Below the pieces are notes generated by a model. The model made no database searches. It was not told the DNA's origin and was given only the letters and a program-made list of their open reading frames with translations. From contig JAJRXF010000098.1 in NCBI GenBank assembly GCA_024276425.1, positions 1-36,570 of the forward strand: DNA of 36,570 nt, written 5' to 3'. Each line of letters opens with the position of its first letter. The first letter of the stretch is position 1. The translations under genes were made by a program, and so were the position numbers. Of the stretch, positions 15,057 through 35,924 are shown piece by piece. The DNA comes from Actinomycetes bacterium (GTDB lineage: Bacteria > Actinomycetota > Acidimicrobiia > Acidimicrobiales > SZUA-35).

Positions 15057-15062
15057 TACCAT
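15057..15062 (+). promoter_or_regulatory. -10 element for the gcv riboswitch leader
   Basis: TACCAT fits TAnnnT and places the transcription start near 15068-15070, exactly where the first glycine aptamer begins (GGGAGAGCGG). No good -35 is visible. Confidence 0.5.
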
Positions 15063-15067
15063 CTTGT

Positions 15068-15250
15068 GGGAGAGCGGTCGGCATGCCGGCCCGCCGAAGG
15101 AGCAACCGCCCCGGAAACTCTCAGGCACCCGTACCGCAAGGCGTTGACCGCTCTGGAGAGCGTCTGGTCCGCCCCACATAGGCGGGTGCCCGGCCACCGA
15201 AGGTGTAAGTGCCCACGGCACGAAACTCTCAGGTTTGTGACAGAGGGGGT
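15068..15250 (+). ncRNA. Tandem glycine riboswitch (gcvT leader)
   Basis: Two consecutive glycine aptamers lie before gcvT. The first (about 15068-15160) has CCGCCGAAGGAGCAA, GGAAACTCTCAGGCACC and the closing CTCTGGAGAG. The second (about 15161-15250) has CACCGAAGGTGTAAG, GAAACTCTCAGGTTTG and GACAGAGGGGG. These are the conserved cores of the gcvT RNA class, which bind glycine cooperatively and usually switch on glycine cleavage genes. Position directly before gcvT-gcvP fits. Boundaries are approximate because I paired the stems by eye. Confidence 0.95.
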
Positions 15251-15274
15251 ACCCAACAACGTTTTGAGGTACCC
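15247..15274 (+). promoter_or_regulatory. Putative ribosome-site-sequestering hairpin of the gcv riboswitch
   Basis: GGGTACC at 15247-15253 can pair perfectly with GGTACCC at 15268-15274 over a 14-nt loop. The right arm takes in the GG of the gcvT Shine-Dalgarno sequence (GAGG, 15266-15269) and ends 1 nt before the ATG. It directly follows the second aptamer, so it could be the translational expression platform. This is a reading of base complementarity, not a tested fold. Confidence 0.5.
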
Positions 15275-16404: not shown

Positions 16405-18891
16405 ATGACCAACGATTTCCGTACTTTCGCCGACCGGCATGTGTCCTTAACCGCCGAAGAACAAGCCAAGCTGGTAGCCGAGCTTGGCTATGAGTCACCG
16501 GCTGCACTCCTGGCCAAGGCCGTACCCGAAAGCATCCAGATTCACGAAGCTCTGGCGCTCGACCCAGCCCTGACCGAGACCGAAGCCCTATCTCAACTTC
16601 GGTCCCTCGCCGACCAGAACAAGGTCTATACCTCCTTGATCGGCATGGGTTGGAACAACACCCTGACCCCGGCGGTCATTCGCCGGAACATGATCGAAAA
16701 TCCTGCCTGGTACACCGCATACACCCCCTACCAGCCCGAAATCAGCCAGGGTCGGCTGGAGATGCTGACGGTTTTCCAGATGATGGTCGCCGATCTCACT
16801 GGTTGCGAATTGGCCAATGCTTCCATGCTGGATGAGGCGACAGCGGCGGCCGAGGCGATGACCATGCTGCGTCGAGTGGACAAGACAAAGCGGACCGCAT
16901 TTTTCGTCGACGAGGACTGCCATCCACAAACCAAGGCCGTGGTGGCGACCCGGGCCAAACCGTTGGGTATCGAACTTATCGTTGGCGATCCGACGGCCGA
17001 GTTGGGTGCTGGAGGTGACGTGTTGGCCCAGGTGTATGGGGTATTACTGGCCCACCCTGGCTCCAGTGGCCAGCTTCGAGACATTGAACCCCTTATTGCT
17101 TCGTGTCACCAGGCAAAGGCGGGGGTTGCGGTCACGACCGATTTGTTGGCCTGCACCCTCATCACCCCTCCGGGTGAGATGGGGGTCGATGTCGTCGTTG
17201 GCTCCGCCCAACGTTTTGGCGTGCCAATGGGATTTGGCGGTCCGTCAGCAGGGTTTATGGCCACCCGTCAGAAGATGGCCCGTTCTCTGCCCGGTCGTCT
17301 GGTCGGAGTTTCGGTCGACTCGGCTGGCGATCCGGCCTACCGCCTTGCTCTACAGACCAGAGAGCAACATATTCGTCGGGAGAAGGCCACCTCCAACATC
17401 TGTACCGCCCAGGCGCTCTTGGCCAACATCGCGGCCTCCTACGCTTGTTGGCATGGCCCCGATGGGCTCACGGCAATCGCTGCCAGGATCAATAGCTTCA
17501 CTAGTCGATTTCGTGAGGCCTTAGTAAACGCCGGCTTCACCACAACCGAAACCTTCTTCGACACCCTGACGGTGCAAGTAGCTGGCCGTGCGGCGGAGAT
17601 CGTGGCCTCGGCCGCAGAACGCCAGATCAACCTTCGCCTGGTTGACCAGGACCATGTTGGCCTGTCTTTCGACGAGGCAACGACGGAGGAGACTCTCGAT
17701 GAGCTAACCCTCGCCTTCGGGCTCAGCGATCTGCCAACTTCGCCCATCGAGGCCTCCATCCCAGCCGATCAGCTCCGCACAACCGAGTTCCTCACCGACG
17801 GCAGGTTCCATCGCTACCGGTCCGAACACGAGATGCTTCGTTGGCTGCGACGCCTCTCGGACCGCGATCTGGCCCTGGATAGAACAATGATCCCCCTTGG
17901 CTCTTGCACCATGAAACTCAATGCAGCAGCAGAGATGGAGCCACTTACTTGGGCAAGTTTCGCTGACATGCACCCATATGCCCCCGCCGACCAGACCAAG
18001 GGATACCGCAATCTCATCGCCGACCTTGAGGACACTCTGGTAGAGATCACCGGCTATGACCGGGTATCGCTACAACCGAATGCCGGGAGCCAGGGCGAAT
18101 ACGCTGGCCTGCTCGCCATCCGGGGCTACTTGTCTAGCATCGGCGAAGGTCACCGACAGATCTGCCTTATCCCATCCTCAGCTCATGGCACCAATGCCGC
18201 CTCCGCCGTCTTGGCTGGCATGCGGGTCGTGGTCGTGGCTTGCGACGAACGGGGCGATGTCGACGTTGAAGACTTGAAGGACAAGATCACCACCCACAGC
18301 GATGATCTGGCCGCCCTGATGATCACCTACCCGTCAACCCACGGTGTGTATGAAGACACCGTGGTTGAGATATGCGAAATGGTTCACGCTGCCGGTGGCC
18401 AGGTCTATACCGATGGAGCCAATCTCAACGCCTTGGTCGGGGTGGCCAAGCCTGGCAAATTTGGATCTGATGTAAGCCACCTCAACCTCCACAAGACCTT
18501 CGCCATCCCTCATGGCGGCGGCGGCCCCGGCGTCGGACCCATCGGGGTTCGCCAGCACCTGGCCCCATTCCTACCTGGACACCCCGTTATGCCCGATGCT
18601 GGACCCATCGGACAGGGACCGGTGGCCAGCGCACCATGGGGGTCGGCCAGCATTTTGCCCATCACCTGGATGTACCTCAAGCTCATGGGCCCCAAGGGCC
18701 TGCGTGCTGCTACTGAGGCCGCGGTTCTCGCCGCCAACTATGTCGCCCACCGGCTTCAGCCCTATTACCCGGTGCTGTACACGGGCCCCGAGGGTCTGGT
18801 TGCCCACGAATGCATCATCGACATCCGACCAATAACCGAGTCCACCCAGATCGGGGTTGACGACATCGCGAAACGTTTGGCCGATTGCTGA
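16405..18891 (+). CDS. gcvP: Glycine dehydrogenase (P protein), ended early by in-frame TGA
   Basis: 828 residues to a TGA at 18889-18891; full-length P proteins run to about 950. It has both halves of the fold, with [41 protein letters not shown], and the pyridoxal-phosphate lysine in [19 protein letters not shown]. It decarboxylates glycine and loads the aminomethyl group onto lipoyl-GcvH. Normal members read (D/Y)[10 protein letters not shown] at the stop; here the reading is GATTGC-TGA-TTCCACGCTCCG, so one codon of the otherwise continuous frame is a stop in place of glycine (GGA). The remaining 119 codons after the stop are listed separately. If translated only to here, the C-terminal domain is lost. 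Confidence 0.93.
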
Positions 18892-19262: not shown

Positions 19263-19646
19263 CTAGCGGGCACGAAATGCTCGGGAAAGCAAGGGGCTGT
19301 GGGGGTCGTCGGCTACGGCGGACAGCTTGGCCTCTTCGCGCGCCTTTCGATCCCAGCTAAAGGGGGCGTTTGGTTCTTGGCGGCGCCGCGATGGCCGACT
19401 CCCTGGGGCATTGCCTGATCCGGCCGAGTCGTCTTGACATAACTCAAGCTGACGGGTAAGAGTGCGATCGTCAACCAAGACCCAACCGACTGGGGCAGTG
19501 CGGGTTCTGGCGTGATGGGCACAAACCGGAATGCCCGCAATAGTGTCGGTCAGGTCGACGAGGAGAACCCGCGAACCTTCTGTATCGAATTGAAGGCTGG
19601 CGGCGCCGGGTTCCTGACAGTTAAACCGTGCACAGACCGGATACAT
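19263..19646 (-). CDS. DUF3499-family small zinc-ribbon-like protein
   Basis: 127 residues. The N-terminus has CARFNCQEPGAASL and, further on, IPVCAHHARTRTAPVGW, which match the actinobacterial DUF3499 layout of two cysteine pairs followed by a short Trp-containing strand. The C-terminal half is Arg/Ser/Pro-rich and probably disordered. Cysteine spacing suggests metal binding, but the function of the family is unknown. Its start has TATCTT 8 nt upstream. It converges on the end of gcvP with an 11-nt gap and is divergent from the second DUF4214 gene. Confidence 0.75.
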   Translation of the reverse strand: MYPVCARFNCQEPGAASLQFDTEGSRVLLVDLTDTIAGIPVCAHHARTRTAPVGWVLVDDRTLTRQLELCQDDSAGSGNAPGSRPSRRRQEPNAPFSWDRKAREEAKLSAVADDPHSPLLSRAFRAR

Positions 19647-19654
19647 GGCTGCAC

Positions 19655-19660
19655 AAGATA
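19655..19660 (-). promoter_or_regulatory. -10 element of the DUF3499 gene, leaderless layout
   Basis: On the minus strand TATCTT ends 8 nt before the ATG at 19646, without a Shine-Dalgarno sequence. The expected -35 region falls inside the three-way-junction sequence described next. Confidence 0.45.
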
Positions 19661-19668
19661 GCAGTTAT

Positions 19669-19726
19669 ATGCACCTAACCAGGGGATTCTCCCCTAGAGA
19701 CGGGTGATCGTCTCAACCGGGTGCAT
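19669..19726 (+). promoter_or_regulatory. Compact three-way-junction inverted repeats of unknown function
   Basis: Three perfect helices are nested. P1 is ATGCACC (19669-19675) with GGTGCAT (19720-19726). P2 is AGGGGA (19681-19686) with TCCCCT (19690-19695) around TTC. P3 is GAGACG (19697-19702) with CGTCTC (19709-19714) around GGTGAT. P2 and P3 are one nucleotide apart; the two other linkers are TAACC and AACCG. It lies upstream of the plus-strand DUF4214-LytM gene and could be a 5' leader RNA or, alternatively, regulator sites in the shared divergent promoter region. I do not recognise it as a known riboswitch class. Confidence 0.4.
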
Positions 19727-19800
19727 CAACCCATCGTGGCAGAAACAGCCTGGCCAGTTGTTAGATTTTGATGTGGCAGTTGAAAAGAAAGATCGGTGCC

Positions 19801-20934
19801 ATGACCAACCACAACCAGCACAACACCGATCCAAATCGTGAGAAGCCTCGTCCGGTTTCGCGAGTCATCGGAACATTTGTCCTACTGCTAACACTGGCAA
19901 CGCTAATACCCCGTATGGCTACGGCCCAGACCCCCGAGGCTGTGACCTCCGAAGCCGTGACTTTTGAGCAGGTGGCGGCACTAGATGAGCTGACCGATGA
20001 TCACGCCAGAGTGTTCCGCCTGTACTGGGCGTTCTTCGACCGAGAGCCAGATGCTGCGGGAGCGTTGTATTGGGTTGGCCGCTGGGATAGCTGCCTCAAT
20101 CTCGAATCGATCGCGGAGTTTTTTGTTGACGGGCCAGAATTCCAGGCCACCTATGGCGATCTGAGCGACGAGGCTTTTGTCGATCTTGTCTATGCCAACG
20201 TGCTAGATCGGAAAGCCGAAACCGAGGGACGAATGTTCTGGCAAGCAGAGCTTGCCAACTCGCGTATGACACGAGCCGAGGTAATGCTGCACTTCGCCTA
20301 CTCGGCCGAGTTTGTTGCCAGCCACCCCCTGCCCTCTGATGGAGTTCCCAGCCGGGGGTGTTCTGGTCTCCTCAGCCCGACCGGTCCGCGCTCACTCCGA
20401 TTCCAGAACTATGAAGCCTTCGCCACCGTTGGTGGGGTCACTCTGTATCAACCTTCGGTTGCGGTGGAACAGATTGGCTTTCACCAGTCGGGCAACGAGG
20501 GAGCCCGCCAACTAACCCCCGTCCCATCCGATGCAACACCGATGATGACCATGGAAAGCCGCGCCCGGGGAACGGGCACTCGGACCGCGGCCGACATCGC
20601 GGTCCACCCTGGGTTTGAGATTCGCTCACCCGTCACCGGCACCGTAATTCGGGCCGGAGGATACGTGCTGTACTGCAAGTATCGGGACGACTTCGTTGTG
20701 ATTGAGCCCGATGATCGACCCGGCTGGGAGGTCAAGGTTCTTCATATCGACGGAGTACAAGTACAAACCGGTGATCGGGTCGAGGCGGGGGTGACGGTCA
20801 TTGCCCCAACCCAAACCAAGTTCCCCTTCCGCTCACAGATTGATGCCTTCACCGGTGAACCATCGTGGGGTCATGTCCAGATCGAGGTGGTTGACCCATC
20901 CATCCCCGATCGGCCATCGGGCCGACACTGCTAG
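19801..20934 (+). CDS. Secreted DUF4214 protein with degenerate LytM/M23-like domain
   Basis: About 377 residues from the ATG at 19801 (in-frame TTG 19768 and ATG 19771 are alternatives). A signal peptide ends near RMATAQ. Residues about 65-165 form a DUF4214 domain (VFRLYWAFFDREPDAAGALYW, shown by VFRLYWAFFDREP, and VYANVLDRKAETEGRMFW). The C-terminal part resembles the LytM/M23 beta-barrel: ADIAVHPGFEIRSPVTGTVI, YCKYRDDFVVIEP, VQTGDRVEAGVTV and WGHVQIEVV. The metal-ligand HxxxD appears as RxxxD and HxH as HxQ, so it is probably not an active endopeptidase, and may bind or activate cell-wall enzymes. That role is inference. Confidence 0.82.
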   Translation: MTNHNQHNTDPNREKPRPVSRVIGTFVLLLTLATLIPRMATAQTPEAVTSEAVTFEQVAALDELTDDHARVFRLYWAFFDREPDAAGALYWVGRWDSCLNLESIAEFFVDGPEFQATYGDLSDEAFVDLVYANVLDRKAETEGRMFWQAELANSRMTRAEVMLHFAYSAEFVASHPLPSDGVPSRGCSGLLSPTGPRSLRFQNYEAFATVGGVTLYQPSVAVEQIGFHQSGNEGARQLTPVPSDATPMMTMESRARGTGTRTAADIAVHPGFEIRSPVTGTVIRAGGYVLYCKYRDDFVVIEPDDRPGWEVKVLHIDGVQVQTGDRVEAGVTVIAPTQTKFPFRSQIDAFTGEPSWGHVQIEVVDPSIPDRPSGRHC

Positions 20935-32950: not shown

Positions 32951-34946
32951 TGATGTCGTTTCCGGTGATCGGGATTCCCTCAGTGCTTCCCGAAACCAGG
33001 TCGCCCTCACAGTTCAGCGCACTTGCGATAATCGTCCCCTGGGGGACTAACAACTTGTAGCTGCCTCCAATGGGAATGGTGTCCTCGGAGCCGAGTTCGT
33101 CCAGACCAACATCGGCGGAACCGAGCGGATTCACTTTCAGAAAACAAATCTCGAAGGCGGATTGGTTGACGAACTCGACCTCGTACACGGGAACAGGCTC
33201 CGGTGTGACTTCGATTGCTTCGATGAAAATGATCTCGTCCTGCACAAAGAACACAATCTCATAAAGCCCGGCGGACAGACCGTCTTGATTTTGGGCGCAA
33301 ACCCAGAAGTTTGTCCCGCTGCTCTCCTGCACCCAGGTCTCACCAAAGTAGCTGAAGTCTTCGATGACTTCTCCGTCTATAAGCCACACAGCATCCCACC
33401 CTGCTCCCGTTGGAAGGTTCTGCCAATCAAACCAGAAGCAAAGGTTGTTGGTTCCTGCTGCCGCGGTGGTGGTGAACTCGGTTGTTTCTTCAGTCTCTCC
33501 TACCCCGAGACTAAACCCGGGTCGGTAGGCAATGACCTGGAATGGGTCAACAACGATTTCCGCTGGCTGGGCGGCCCCAGCTGCATTGGATGCCAGGGGT
33601 GTCGCCGTCTGGGCGCTGGTGATGATATCGGCCGCGAGGTTGATGGGGCGGATGCCGTTGAGGAAGCCGCCAATCGGTGTGCACTGGTCACCATTGTCAA
33701 TGGAGCCATCGCCATTGGTGTCGGTGATTACTCGGCAGTCAACGATCGGAGAATCCTCACCGGCTGAGGCCTGAGTCGGGATACCAATCAGTTGGCCTTC
33801 CAGGTTCACGGCTGTTCCACCACTGTTGCCACCGGCGATTGTGGCGTCGGTCTTAATCCAAGAACGATCGCTCACTCCCGCTTGGGAAGTAAAGCCCGAC
33901 ACCGCACCATTGGTGAAGGTGATGGTGCTACCTCCGATGGTCGGGTAGCCAAGGATGCGGATGTTGTCACCGATCTTGACCGAATCGCTGTCACCAATTT
34001 CGGTGGAAGGGAAGGTGTCTGGGAGTGGGCTTCCGTCGAGTGACTCAGCGATTCGTAGTACGGCGAGATCAAGCTGGAAGTCAAAGTCGAGCAGGTCGGC
34101 CAAGTACAGAATCTCGGGGGCGAGGCCAGCATCGTCGGTCATGGCAATAGCGATTGACTCGACTTCGCAGCCGTTGCCGGGAGTGATGACATGAGCATTG
34201 GTCAAGATGGTGCCGCGGTCATCCAAGATCGTGCCTGAACCAACGCAAGTTGGCTCACCGGCGGTGTTGCGCACCAAGATTTGTACGGTCGATTGGGCCA
34301 ACCGCTCGACACTGGGCGGCCCTTCGGGCTCGGCGATGGTGGTCGTCGGAGCCTCGGTGGTGACGACTGTGGTGGTGACGGCCGTGGTTGTTGTTGCGGC
34401 ATCTTCGTCGCCCCCGCCTCCGGCCACGATGGCAGCGGCGCCGCCACCGGCGATGAGAAGGGCCAGTGCCCCGCCGACGATCATCCCGGTCTTCTTCTTC
34501 TTGGGTGCGGGCTGGGTTGGGGTACCGCCATAGGGGTTCGGTGATCCTGGGGCTGAGGTACCAAAGGACTGGGTCGGGGGAATCGCCCCGGGAGGTGACG
34601 CTGCTGGAGGTGCCTGGTACGGCTGGGCCGGTTGTGGCACTTGGTAAGGCTGGGCCGGTTGTGGCGCTTGGGCTTGTTGTGGCGGTGGCGTGGCCTGGGG
34701 TTGGTAGGGCTGGGCCGGTGGCGTCTGGTAAGGCGTGGCGGCCGGAGGTTGGGCCGCGGGAGGTTGGGCCGCGGGAGGAGTGGCGGCCGGAGGTTGGGCC
34801 GCGGGAGGAGTGGCGGCCGGAGGTTGGGCCGCGGGAGGGGTGGCGGCCGGAGGTTGGGCCGCGGGAGGAGTGGCGGCCGGAGGTTGGGCCTCTTGGCCAG
34901 GACGCTTGGGGGGTTGCGGTGGCTCGTACTTGTTCGAATCGCTCAC
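32937..34946 (-). CDS. Membrane-anchored HtrA-like trypsin-fold protease with Pro/Ala-rich tail
   Basis: 669 residues from the GTG at 34946. A cytoplasmic Gln/Pro/Ala-rich region of about 145 residues contains QPPAATPPAA repeats and QPYQ motifs. KKKK and a transmembrane helix (MIVGGALALLIAGGGAAAIVAGG, in part GALALLIAGGGAAAIV) follow at about 150-175. The outer part holds a trypsin-like domain with His in LTNAHVITPG (about 251), Asp in LDLAVLRI (about 291) and Ser in AGGNSGGTAV (about 373). The C-terminal 200 residues are beta-rich and of unknown function. It is probably a cell-envelope quality-control protease. TAGATT lies 7 nt before the GTG. Confidence 0.87.
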   Translation of the reverse strand: MSDSNKYEPPQPPKRPGQEAQPPAATPPAAQPPAATPPAAQPPAATPPAAQPPAATPPAAQPPAAQPPAATPYQTPPAQPYQPQATPPPQQAQAPQPAQPYQVPQPAQPYQAPPAASPPGAIPPTQSFGTSAPGSPNPYGGTPTQPAPKKKKTGMIVGGALALLIAGGGAAAIVAGGGGDEDAATTTTAVTTTVVTTEAPTTTIAEPEGPPSVERLAQSTVQILVRNTAGEPTCVGSGTILDDRGTILTNAHVITPGNGCEVESIAIAMTDDAGLAPEILYLADLLDFDFQLDLAVLRIAESLDGSPLPDTFPSTEIGDSDSVKIGDNIRILGYPTIGGSTITFTNGAVSGFTSQAGVSDRSWIKTDATIAGGNSGGTAVNLEGQLIGIPTQASAGEDSPIVDCRVITDTNGDGSIDNGDQCTPIGGFLNGIRPINLAADIITSAQTATPLASNAAGAAQPAEIVVDPFQVIAYRPGFSLGVGETEETTEFTTTAAAGTNNLCFWFDWQNLPTGAGWDAVWLIDGEVIEDFSYFGETWVQESSGTNFWVCAQNQDGLSAGLYEIVFFVQDEIIFIEAIEVTPEPVPVYEVEFVNQSAFEICFLKVNPLGSADVGLDELGSEDTIPIGGSYKLLVPQGTIIASALNCEGDLVSGSTEGIPITGNDIITIS
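34741..34890. repeat. 30-bp tandem repeat coding for QPPAATPPAA
   Basis: Four 30-bp units at 34771-34890, one with a single mismatch (GAGGGG for GAGGAG), plus a related partial unit at 34741-34770. They lie in the N-terminal cytoplasmic region of the HtrA-like protease. High GC and repetition make the copy number prone to slippage and to assembly collapse. Confidence 0.9.
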
Positions 34947-35348: not shown

Positions 35349-35924
35349 ATGACAACTACGGTAGTAGTCACCATGAGTACTGCTTCGCTCGACAACCGCC
35401 ACTCACTCGCTCAACGAATCTTCGAGCGGTGCTATCTGACCGGGGAGTTCCGCCTTCGCTCTGGTCGCATGGCGACCTACTACTTCGACAAGTACCAATT
35501 CGAGAGCGATCCGGAATTGCTCACAACGATCGCCCAAGGACTCCGAGATCTCATTCCTGCCGATGTCGACCTACTGGCAGGCCTAGAGATGGGCGGGATC
35601 CCTGTGGTGACCGCATTGTCCCGCGAAACCGGGATACCGGCAGTATTTGTTCGTAAGCAGGCAAAGGACTACGGAACAGCGAAACTGGCCGAAGGACCAG
35701 GAATCGAAGGCAAGCGCCTAATGATTGTCGAGGACGTCGCCACCTCCGGCGGGCAGATCAAGTTGTCCGCAAAAGACTTGCGCGACCGCGGTGCCATTGT
35801 TGTCGGAGCCGTATGCGTGGTCGACCGATGCGAGGGCGCCAAAGAAGCTCTAGTCGAAGAACAGATCAGCCTGATCTCCCTGCTACTCGGACCCGAAATA
35901 ATGTCCTTCGCTGTAGCAAGCTGA
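35349..35924 (+). CDS. pyrE: Orotate phosphoribosyltransferase
   Basis: About 191 residues from the ATG at 35349; an ATG at 35373 fits homologue N-termini equally well, and a GTG at 35313 is in frame. LTGEFRLRSGRMATYYFDKY and LLAGLEMGGIPVVTALSRETG are typical of PyrE. The PRPP-binding motif is IVEDVATSGGQIK, and FVRKQAKDYGT is the catalytic-loop region. The enzyme makes orotidine monophosphate from orotate and PRPP in pyrimidine synthesis. It stands alone after the tRNA rather than with other pyr genes. Confidence 0.85.
   Translation: MTTTVVVTMSTASLDNRHSLAQRIFERCYLTGEFRLRSGRMATYYFDKYQFESDPELLTTIAQGLRDLIPADVDLLAGLEMGGIPVVTALSRETGIPAVFVRKQAKDYGTAKLAEGPGIEGKRLMIVEDVATSGGQIKLSAKDLRDRGAIVVGAVCVVDRCEGAKEALVEEQISLISLLLGPEIMSFAVAS

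Follow-up and report, generated by a model that had tools for sequence, protein, structure and literature searches.

The window, by which we mean the whole 36,570-nt stretch of DNA that was analysed, carries a compact group of inverted repeats (19669-19726, 58 nt) between two divergently oriented genes. The features of this locus are as follows:

19263..19646, minus strand: DUF3499 protein gene (open reading frame; Pfam PF12005, 30.8 bits, cut-off 25), probably leaderless
19655..19663, minus strand: TGCTATCTT, predicted extended -10 of the DUF3499 gene, with a TANNNT box that ends 8 nt before the start codon
19669..19675, no strand assigned: left arm of the outer helix, ATGCACC, read from the sequence and the junction descriptor scan
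19681..19695, no strand assigned: palindrome 1, AGGGGA-TTC-TCCCCT, with a 6-bp stem and a 3-nt loop
19697..19714, no strand assigned: palindrome 2, GAGACG-GGTGAT-CGTCTC, with a 6-bp stem and a 6-nt loop
19720..19726, no strand assigned: right arm of the outer helix, GGTGCAT, read from the sequence and the junction descriptor scan
19759..19767, plus strand: predicted extended -10 TGTTAGATT of DUF4214-M23, downstream of the element
19801..20934, plus strand: gene of a secreted DUF4214-M23 protein (Pfam DUF4214, 89.6 bits; M23 borderline)

The element reads ATGCACC-TAACC-[AGGGGA TTC TCCCCT]-A-[GAGACG GGTGAT CGTCTC]-AACCG-GGTGCAT, so that the initial annotation, which had described three perfect helices of 7, 6 and 6 bp joined by the linkers TAACC, A and AACCG, proved exact in coordinates, lengths and linkers. 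All 19 base pairs are Watson-Crick, and the three-way junction is the minimum-energy fold on the plus and minus strands with RNA and DNA parameters alike: as RNA it reaches -28.2 kcal/mol (z -4.3) on the plus strand and -26.9 (z -3.8) on the minus strand, and with DNA parameters -14.9 and -14.7 on the two strands. No open frame of at least 100 aa spans it.

The divergent DUF3499 gene that had been proposed beside the element is confirmed by its Pfam match, and homology starts at residues 3-5 in all 37 other genomes with a match. Its TANNNT box in the window is TATCTT (19655-19660, minus strand) with TG before it. At each of the 30 DUF3499 loci retrieved (this one included; one locus per genome, from 30 of the 38 genomes that gave a match), such a box ends 6-9 nt ahead of an in-frame start codon. 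A TANNNT box just before the start codon is reported in PMC3160421 as a signal of leaderless genes in high-GC bacteria. Because the box keeps this position at all 30 loci, DUF3499 is probably leaderless here, and the alignment of box and start codon suggests the same across the family. The element occupies about -23 to -80 relative to the predicted DUF3499 promoter; with a leaderless gene it would lie upstream of the transcription start and is therefore probably absent from the mRNA. The leaderless organization hence suggests where transcription of DUF3499 starts and counts against a functional RNA on the minus strand.

On the plus strand, the gene had been annotated as DUF4214-LytM: The DUF4214 part is borne out by the Pfam score, and the M23/LytM part is borderline, scoring 25.8 bits where the cut-off is 28.7 and, in a second search, 28.4 bits, or 28.8 with frame neighbours. 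We took ATG 19801 as the start codon; further in-frame starts lie at 19768, 19771 and 19780. A promoter scan flags TAGATT with TG (19762-19767) as -10-like before this gene, and a promoter search recognised no sigma-70-like -35/-10 pair for it. A TANNNT box stands 4-12 nt before an in-frame start in 12 of 21 DUF4214-M23 loci, the one in the window included. On this basis transcription would start at about 19774, downstream of the element, a position that is a guess. DUF4214 domains are plentiful: this genome has 60 matches, and the only same-genus genome of the searched set (hereafter the congener) has 100; a search for literature on DUF4214 in Acidimicrobi- taxa found none.

Since the element is upstream of both predicted starts, it is probably contained in neither mRNA. 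The suggestion that it lies in a leader or promoter region is accordingly supported by position for the promoter half, the element being situated between divergent -10-like boxes, and unsupported for the leader half, because the predicted starts leave both mRNAs without it.

Among the genomes listed, the best matches to DUF3499 and DUF4214-M23 share a contig only in this genome and the congener. In the latter, gcvP, DUF3499, DUF4214-M23 and a YhhN-family gene follow one another in the same order as here, with genes for an IU nucleoside hydrolase, DUF1501 and DUF1800 intervening between DUF3499 and DUF4214; in the other genomes for which both best places are listed, the two genes are on different contigs. 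The divergent pair flanking the element thus looks particular to this genome, with the caveat that the best DUF4214-M23 place of a few genomes is unlisted, that some contigs are short and that draft contigs can hide adjacency. A separate observation concerns gcvP itself: An in-frame TGA at 18889-18891 splits the GcvP C-terminal domain into two open frames in the same frame, at a position where the congener gcvP reads through with Gly, and would reflect either an error in the assembly or a nonsense mutation of recent origin.

The interpretation that we favour, with a probability of about 45%, is that the element is inverted-repeat DNA in a divergent promoter region, operator-like and found in one species so far. 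It would lie upstream of the predicted starts of both DUF3499 (about 19646, leaderless, minus strand) and DUF4214-M23 (about 19774, plus strand) and, if active, would act as DNA. Taking 17-bp spacers, the -35 zone of the DUF3499 promoter would fall within the repeats, whereas that of the DUF4214 promoter would begin about 12 bp beyond their end. A regulator that binds there, or a cruciform that forms there, could block or tune either promoter or both. This assignment builds on the placement of the palindromes between the predicted -10 boxes at 19655-19660 (minus strand) and 19762-19767 (plus strand, an inferred box). It is supported by the near-equal fold on both strands together with the exclusively Watson-Crick pairing, as DNA-level symmetry predicts, by the congener orthologue, which likewise has two strong palindromes between divergent starts, and by the outcome of the RNA searches described below, in which neither Rfam nor the covariance model gave a match above chance beyond the element itself.

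Recurrence of the palindromes gave a less favourable picture for a regulator with many targets. With one mismatch allowed, AGGGGANNNTCCCCT (palindrome 1) has 7 sites in this genome and 4 in the congener, where its reversed control has 9 and 8, and GAGACGNNNNNNCGTCTC (palindrome 2) has 11 and 15, where its control has 6 and 10; palindrome 2 thus recurs at 1.5-1.8 times its control and palindrome 1 below it. Of the 16 further palindrome sites in this genome, 15 fall within open frames of at least 100 aa, which is not proof of coding, and the one outside such frames is a palindrome 2 site with one mismatch. A regulon was not found by way of the palindromes in this genome, and we saw no sequence similarity at the orthologous promoter of the congener. 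The compound operator that had been offered as one explanation is compatible with the position, with palindromes at a promoter, and draws no positive support from recurrence, which gives no sign of a regulon; a regulator with a single target is possible.

Further observations count against the element as an operator: The three different palindromes share no half-site, which would be odd for one regulator; the divergent gene pair is confined to this genome among those listed; the DUF4214 promoter has no recognisable -35; and a TANNNT box at such a distance was not found in 9 of the 21 DUF4214-M23 loci. Compared with the general class of operator-like inverted repeats between divergent promoters, the element likewise consists of 15- and 18-bp palindromes between two -10-like boxes, and these likewise overlap the -35 zone of one promoter. 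Unlike that class, its palindromes have no common half-site, regulon or known regulator, and an outer inverted repeat encloses them. Taken together, a role as promoter DNA fits best, and an incidental origin is nearly as likely.

An incidental origin would mean that the junction has no function and arose, by chance or through local palindrome-perfecting mutation (template switching), in intergenic DNA under weak constraint, which we regard as a serious possibility. Scanning the window for three-way junctions of at least 6/5/5 bp with linkers of at most 6 nt returned the element alone; relaxing the linkers to at most 8 nt added one 6/5/5 candidate (35456-35509) within open frames. A 7/6/6 junction appeared in none of 200 shuffled windows and a 6/6/6 junction in two, and a second set of 1,200 shuffles (43.9 Mb) contained one and six, respectively, which corresponds to expectations of about 0.09 and 0.54 per 3.95-Mb genome for a descriptor that was fitted after the element had been noticed. 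That such tight packing is improbable by chance, as had been argued, is therefore true per window (0/200 shuffles at 7/6/6) and weaker per genome (about 0.09): The element is unusual, yet one such case per whole-genome scan with a post-hoc descriptor is not startling. Judged on folding energy alone it is unremarkable, as its folding z-score at the best offset ranks 18th of 6,088 window-strands (30 shuffles each) with ten other places stronger, and 31 window-strands fold at lower energy.

No other 6/6/6 junction was seen in the 352 kb of this genome that include the window, nor in 349 kb of the congener and 290 kb from relatives; 151 kb of further loci contain one 6/7/6 junction (locus L097), within open frames. 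Junctions of the 6/5/5 type number 3 in the 352 kb of this genome (element included) versus 1.0 in shuffles and 2 versus 2.0 in the 349 kb of the congener, and the nine other junctions listed for the two genomes at looser settings are all within open frames of at least 100 aa. We also considered a genome-wide class of compact three-way junctions or paired hairpins and rejected it: Paired hairpins of at least 6 bp occur 15 times in this genome versus 12.8 in shuffles and 18 versus 12.0 in the congener, those with one stem of at least 7 bp 4 versus 6.4 and 11 versus 4.2, and those with one stem of at least 8 bp 1 versus 1.6 and 4 versus 1.2, so that there is some excess of paired hairpins in the congener and none in this genome. 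Long perfect hairpins are enriched anyway, with 10 stems of at least 10 bp observed versus 1.8 expected in 352 kb. This enrichment speaks for an incidental origin, as do the shuffle expectations, the searches of other genomes, which gave no homologue in sequence or structure that exceeds chance, and the near-direct repeat CGGGTG(C)ATC, present once in loop 2 and once in the right arm, which hints at local duplication. However, the location in non-coding DNA, with an assumed share of about 10%, lowers the odds of chance, independent hairpins leave a 7-bp helix enclosing two adjacent hairpins unexplained, and the congener orthologue has a comparable structure at the same place.

This structure lies upstream of a DUF4214-M23 orthologue with 69% identity and comprises perfect hairpins of 10 bp and 6 bp, 10 nt apart, which together with a weak closing helix fold as a three-way junction (z about -3) some 55 nt before the likely start codon, a start chosen among in-frame candidates. 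Like the element, the hairpins are between two divergent starts. We saw no sequence similarity between the two folds, and the long palindrome of the congener stays unique in both genomes when up to 3 mismatches are allowed. At the congener locus a promoter-like pair, TTGTCG-17-TAGCAT, would place the fold upstream of the transcript start, as predicted for the window. We estimate the chance of a hairpin pair of this kind (at least 6 and at least 8 bp) within the 300-bp gap at this locus at roughly 0.03, a rough figure from no formal test which assumes that non-coding DNA makes up 10% of the genome and that most paired hairpins are non-coding. Apart from this coincidence, no lead speaks for selection on shape. 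The coincidence would be in keeping with a genus that retains a three-armed fold before DUF4214-M23 while sequence and neighbouring gene change, that is, a shape-conserved and sequence-free DNA or RNA control element; such folds lie about 55-75 nt before the gene in both genomes, the closing helix being weak in the congener, and we give this idea only a very slim chance.

A structured RNA, as the initial annotation had proposed, would be a riboswitch-like 5'-leader or a small RNA on the plus strand upstream of DUF4214-M23, and if it were conserved, a secreted protein linked to the cell wall would gain a new kind of control element, in an actinobacterial group that has received little study. 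We consider it improbable, despite the compact junction with its strong plus-strand fold (z -4.3), the placement about 75 nt ahead of the start codon, a position open to riboswitches, in front of a cell-wall-linked gene, and the chance that a promoter is located farther upstream of the element. The predicted plus-strand -10 is downstream of the element, and the two terminator-like sites nearby sit elsewhere, at 19791-19810 (minus strand) and 19855-19874 (plus strand). Rfam gave no gathering-score match at the element and three elsewhere in the window, and for 19560-19840 nothing up to E 10, in line with the earlier statement that the element does not fit the glycine, cobalamin, SAM, c-di-AMP or glutamine riboswitches. 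The Rfam matches elsewhere comprise a tRNA and, at 15057-15253, a tandem glycine riboswitch (RF00504, 61.5 and 40.2 bits), an ordinary one directly before gcvT-gcvP.

Nor did searches for relatives of the element favour an RNA. At the DNA level, no second copy was among the matches listed for its own genome and 40 relatives; the two listed outside matches below E 0.01 concern query positions 199-235, clear of the element at 70-127. A covariance model was built from the single sequence, so that remote homologues could be missed, and was run against overlapping sets of 39 family, 198 order and 296 phylum genomes, with stricter filters on the two larger ones. The covariance search of related genomes that had been suggested recovered the window copy alone above chance in all three sets: five other family genomes match at E 0.02-0.84, below the chance expectation for 39 genomes at E 1, three others in the order set reach E 0.05 versus about 10 expected, and one other in the phylum set reaches E 0.01 versus about 3 expected. 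All nine outside matches, fewer than chance would give, are within open frames of at least 100 aa, and a structure conserved with compensatory changes was not found in relatives with this single-sequence model. Against 77 fetched loci the model gave a single match (L070, E 3.2).

The same structure had also been expected before other DUF4214 or LytM genes, and none convincing turned up there within the fetched stretches: In a descriptor scan of 42 DUF4214/M23 loci (151 kb, mostly with 1.5-kb flanks, so that the scan may not reach the start of a long gene), the matches were the element itself, in two loci overlapping the window, and the 6/7/6 junction of L097, which lies 1.3 kb before the DUF4214 match of that locus and inside open frames. 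When we folded 20 other DUF4214-M23 loci and read them by eye, a comparable compact hairpin pair was seen in the congener only. The purine riboswitch, a compact three-way-junction riboswitch, shares with the element a closing helix and two adjacent hairpins on short linkers; in contrast to it, the element has no Rfam match, no conserved core sequence and no complementary loops (3 and 6 nt), and it is probably not transcribed with either neighbouring gene. A new structured RNA is thus disfavoured by the Rfam result, by the absence of covariance homologues above chance and by predicted promoters that leave the element outside both mRNAs.

That we see here a relic or copy of a REP- or MITE-like element, either mobile and small or a repeated palindrome, with termini of ATGCACC is very unlikely, for although the outer arms resemble terminal inverted repeats, the element is a perfect intergenic palindrome like REP-like repeats and this genome carries another REP-like palindrome family, the element is single-copy as far as searched (no second copy among the DNA matches listed for its own genome and 40 relatives, one place for the covariance model, and no further junction of this type across the 352 kb scanned here), is unrelated in sequence to the REP-like family at 2040-2087, has no match in phage and plasmid records at E 1 and displays no target-site duplication by eye.

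That REP-like family is represented in the window by a palindrome at 2040-2087, TGTCGCGTTTTCGACCC-6 nt-GGGTCGAAAACGCGACA, which has the strongest folding z-score in the window. With one mismatch, its arms match 25 times in this genome and once in the congener, whereas three other family genomes and the reversed control gave 0 matches; the loops of the copies vary, and some copies (e.g., L221) carry a paired variant in both arms while others do not. Strong local folding scores also arise from a 30-bp tandem repeat at 34752-34890, which comprises 4.6 copies with 96% matches.
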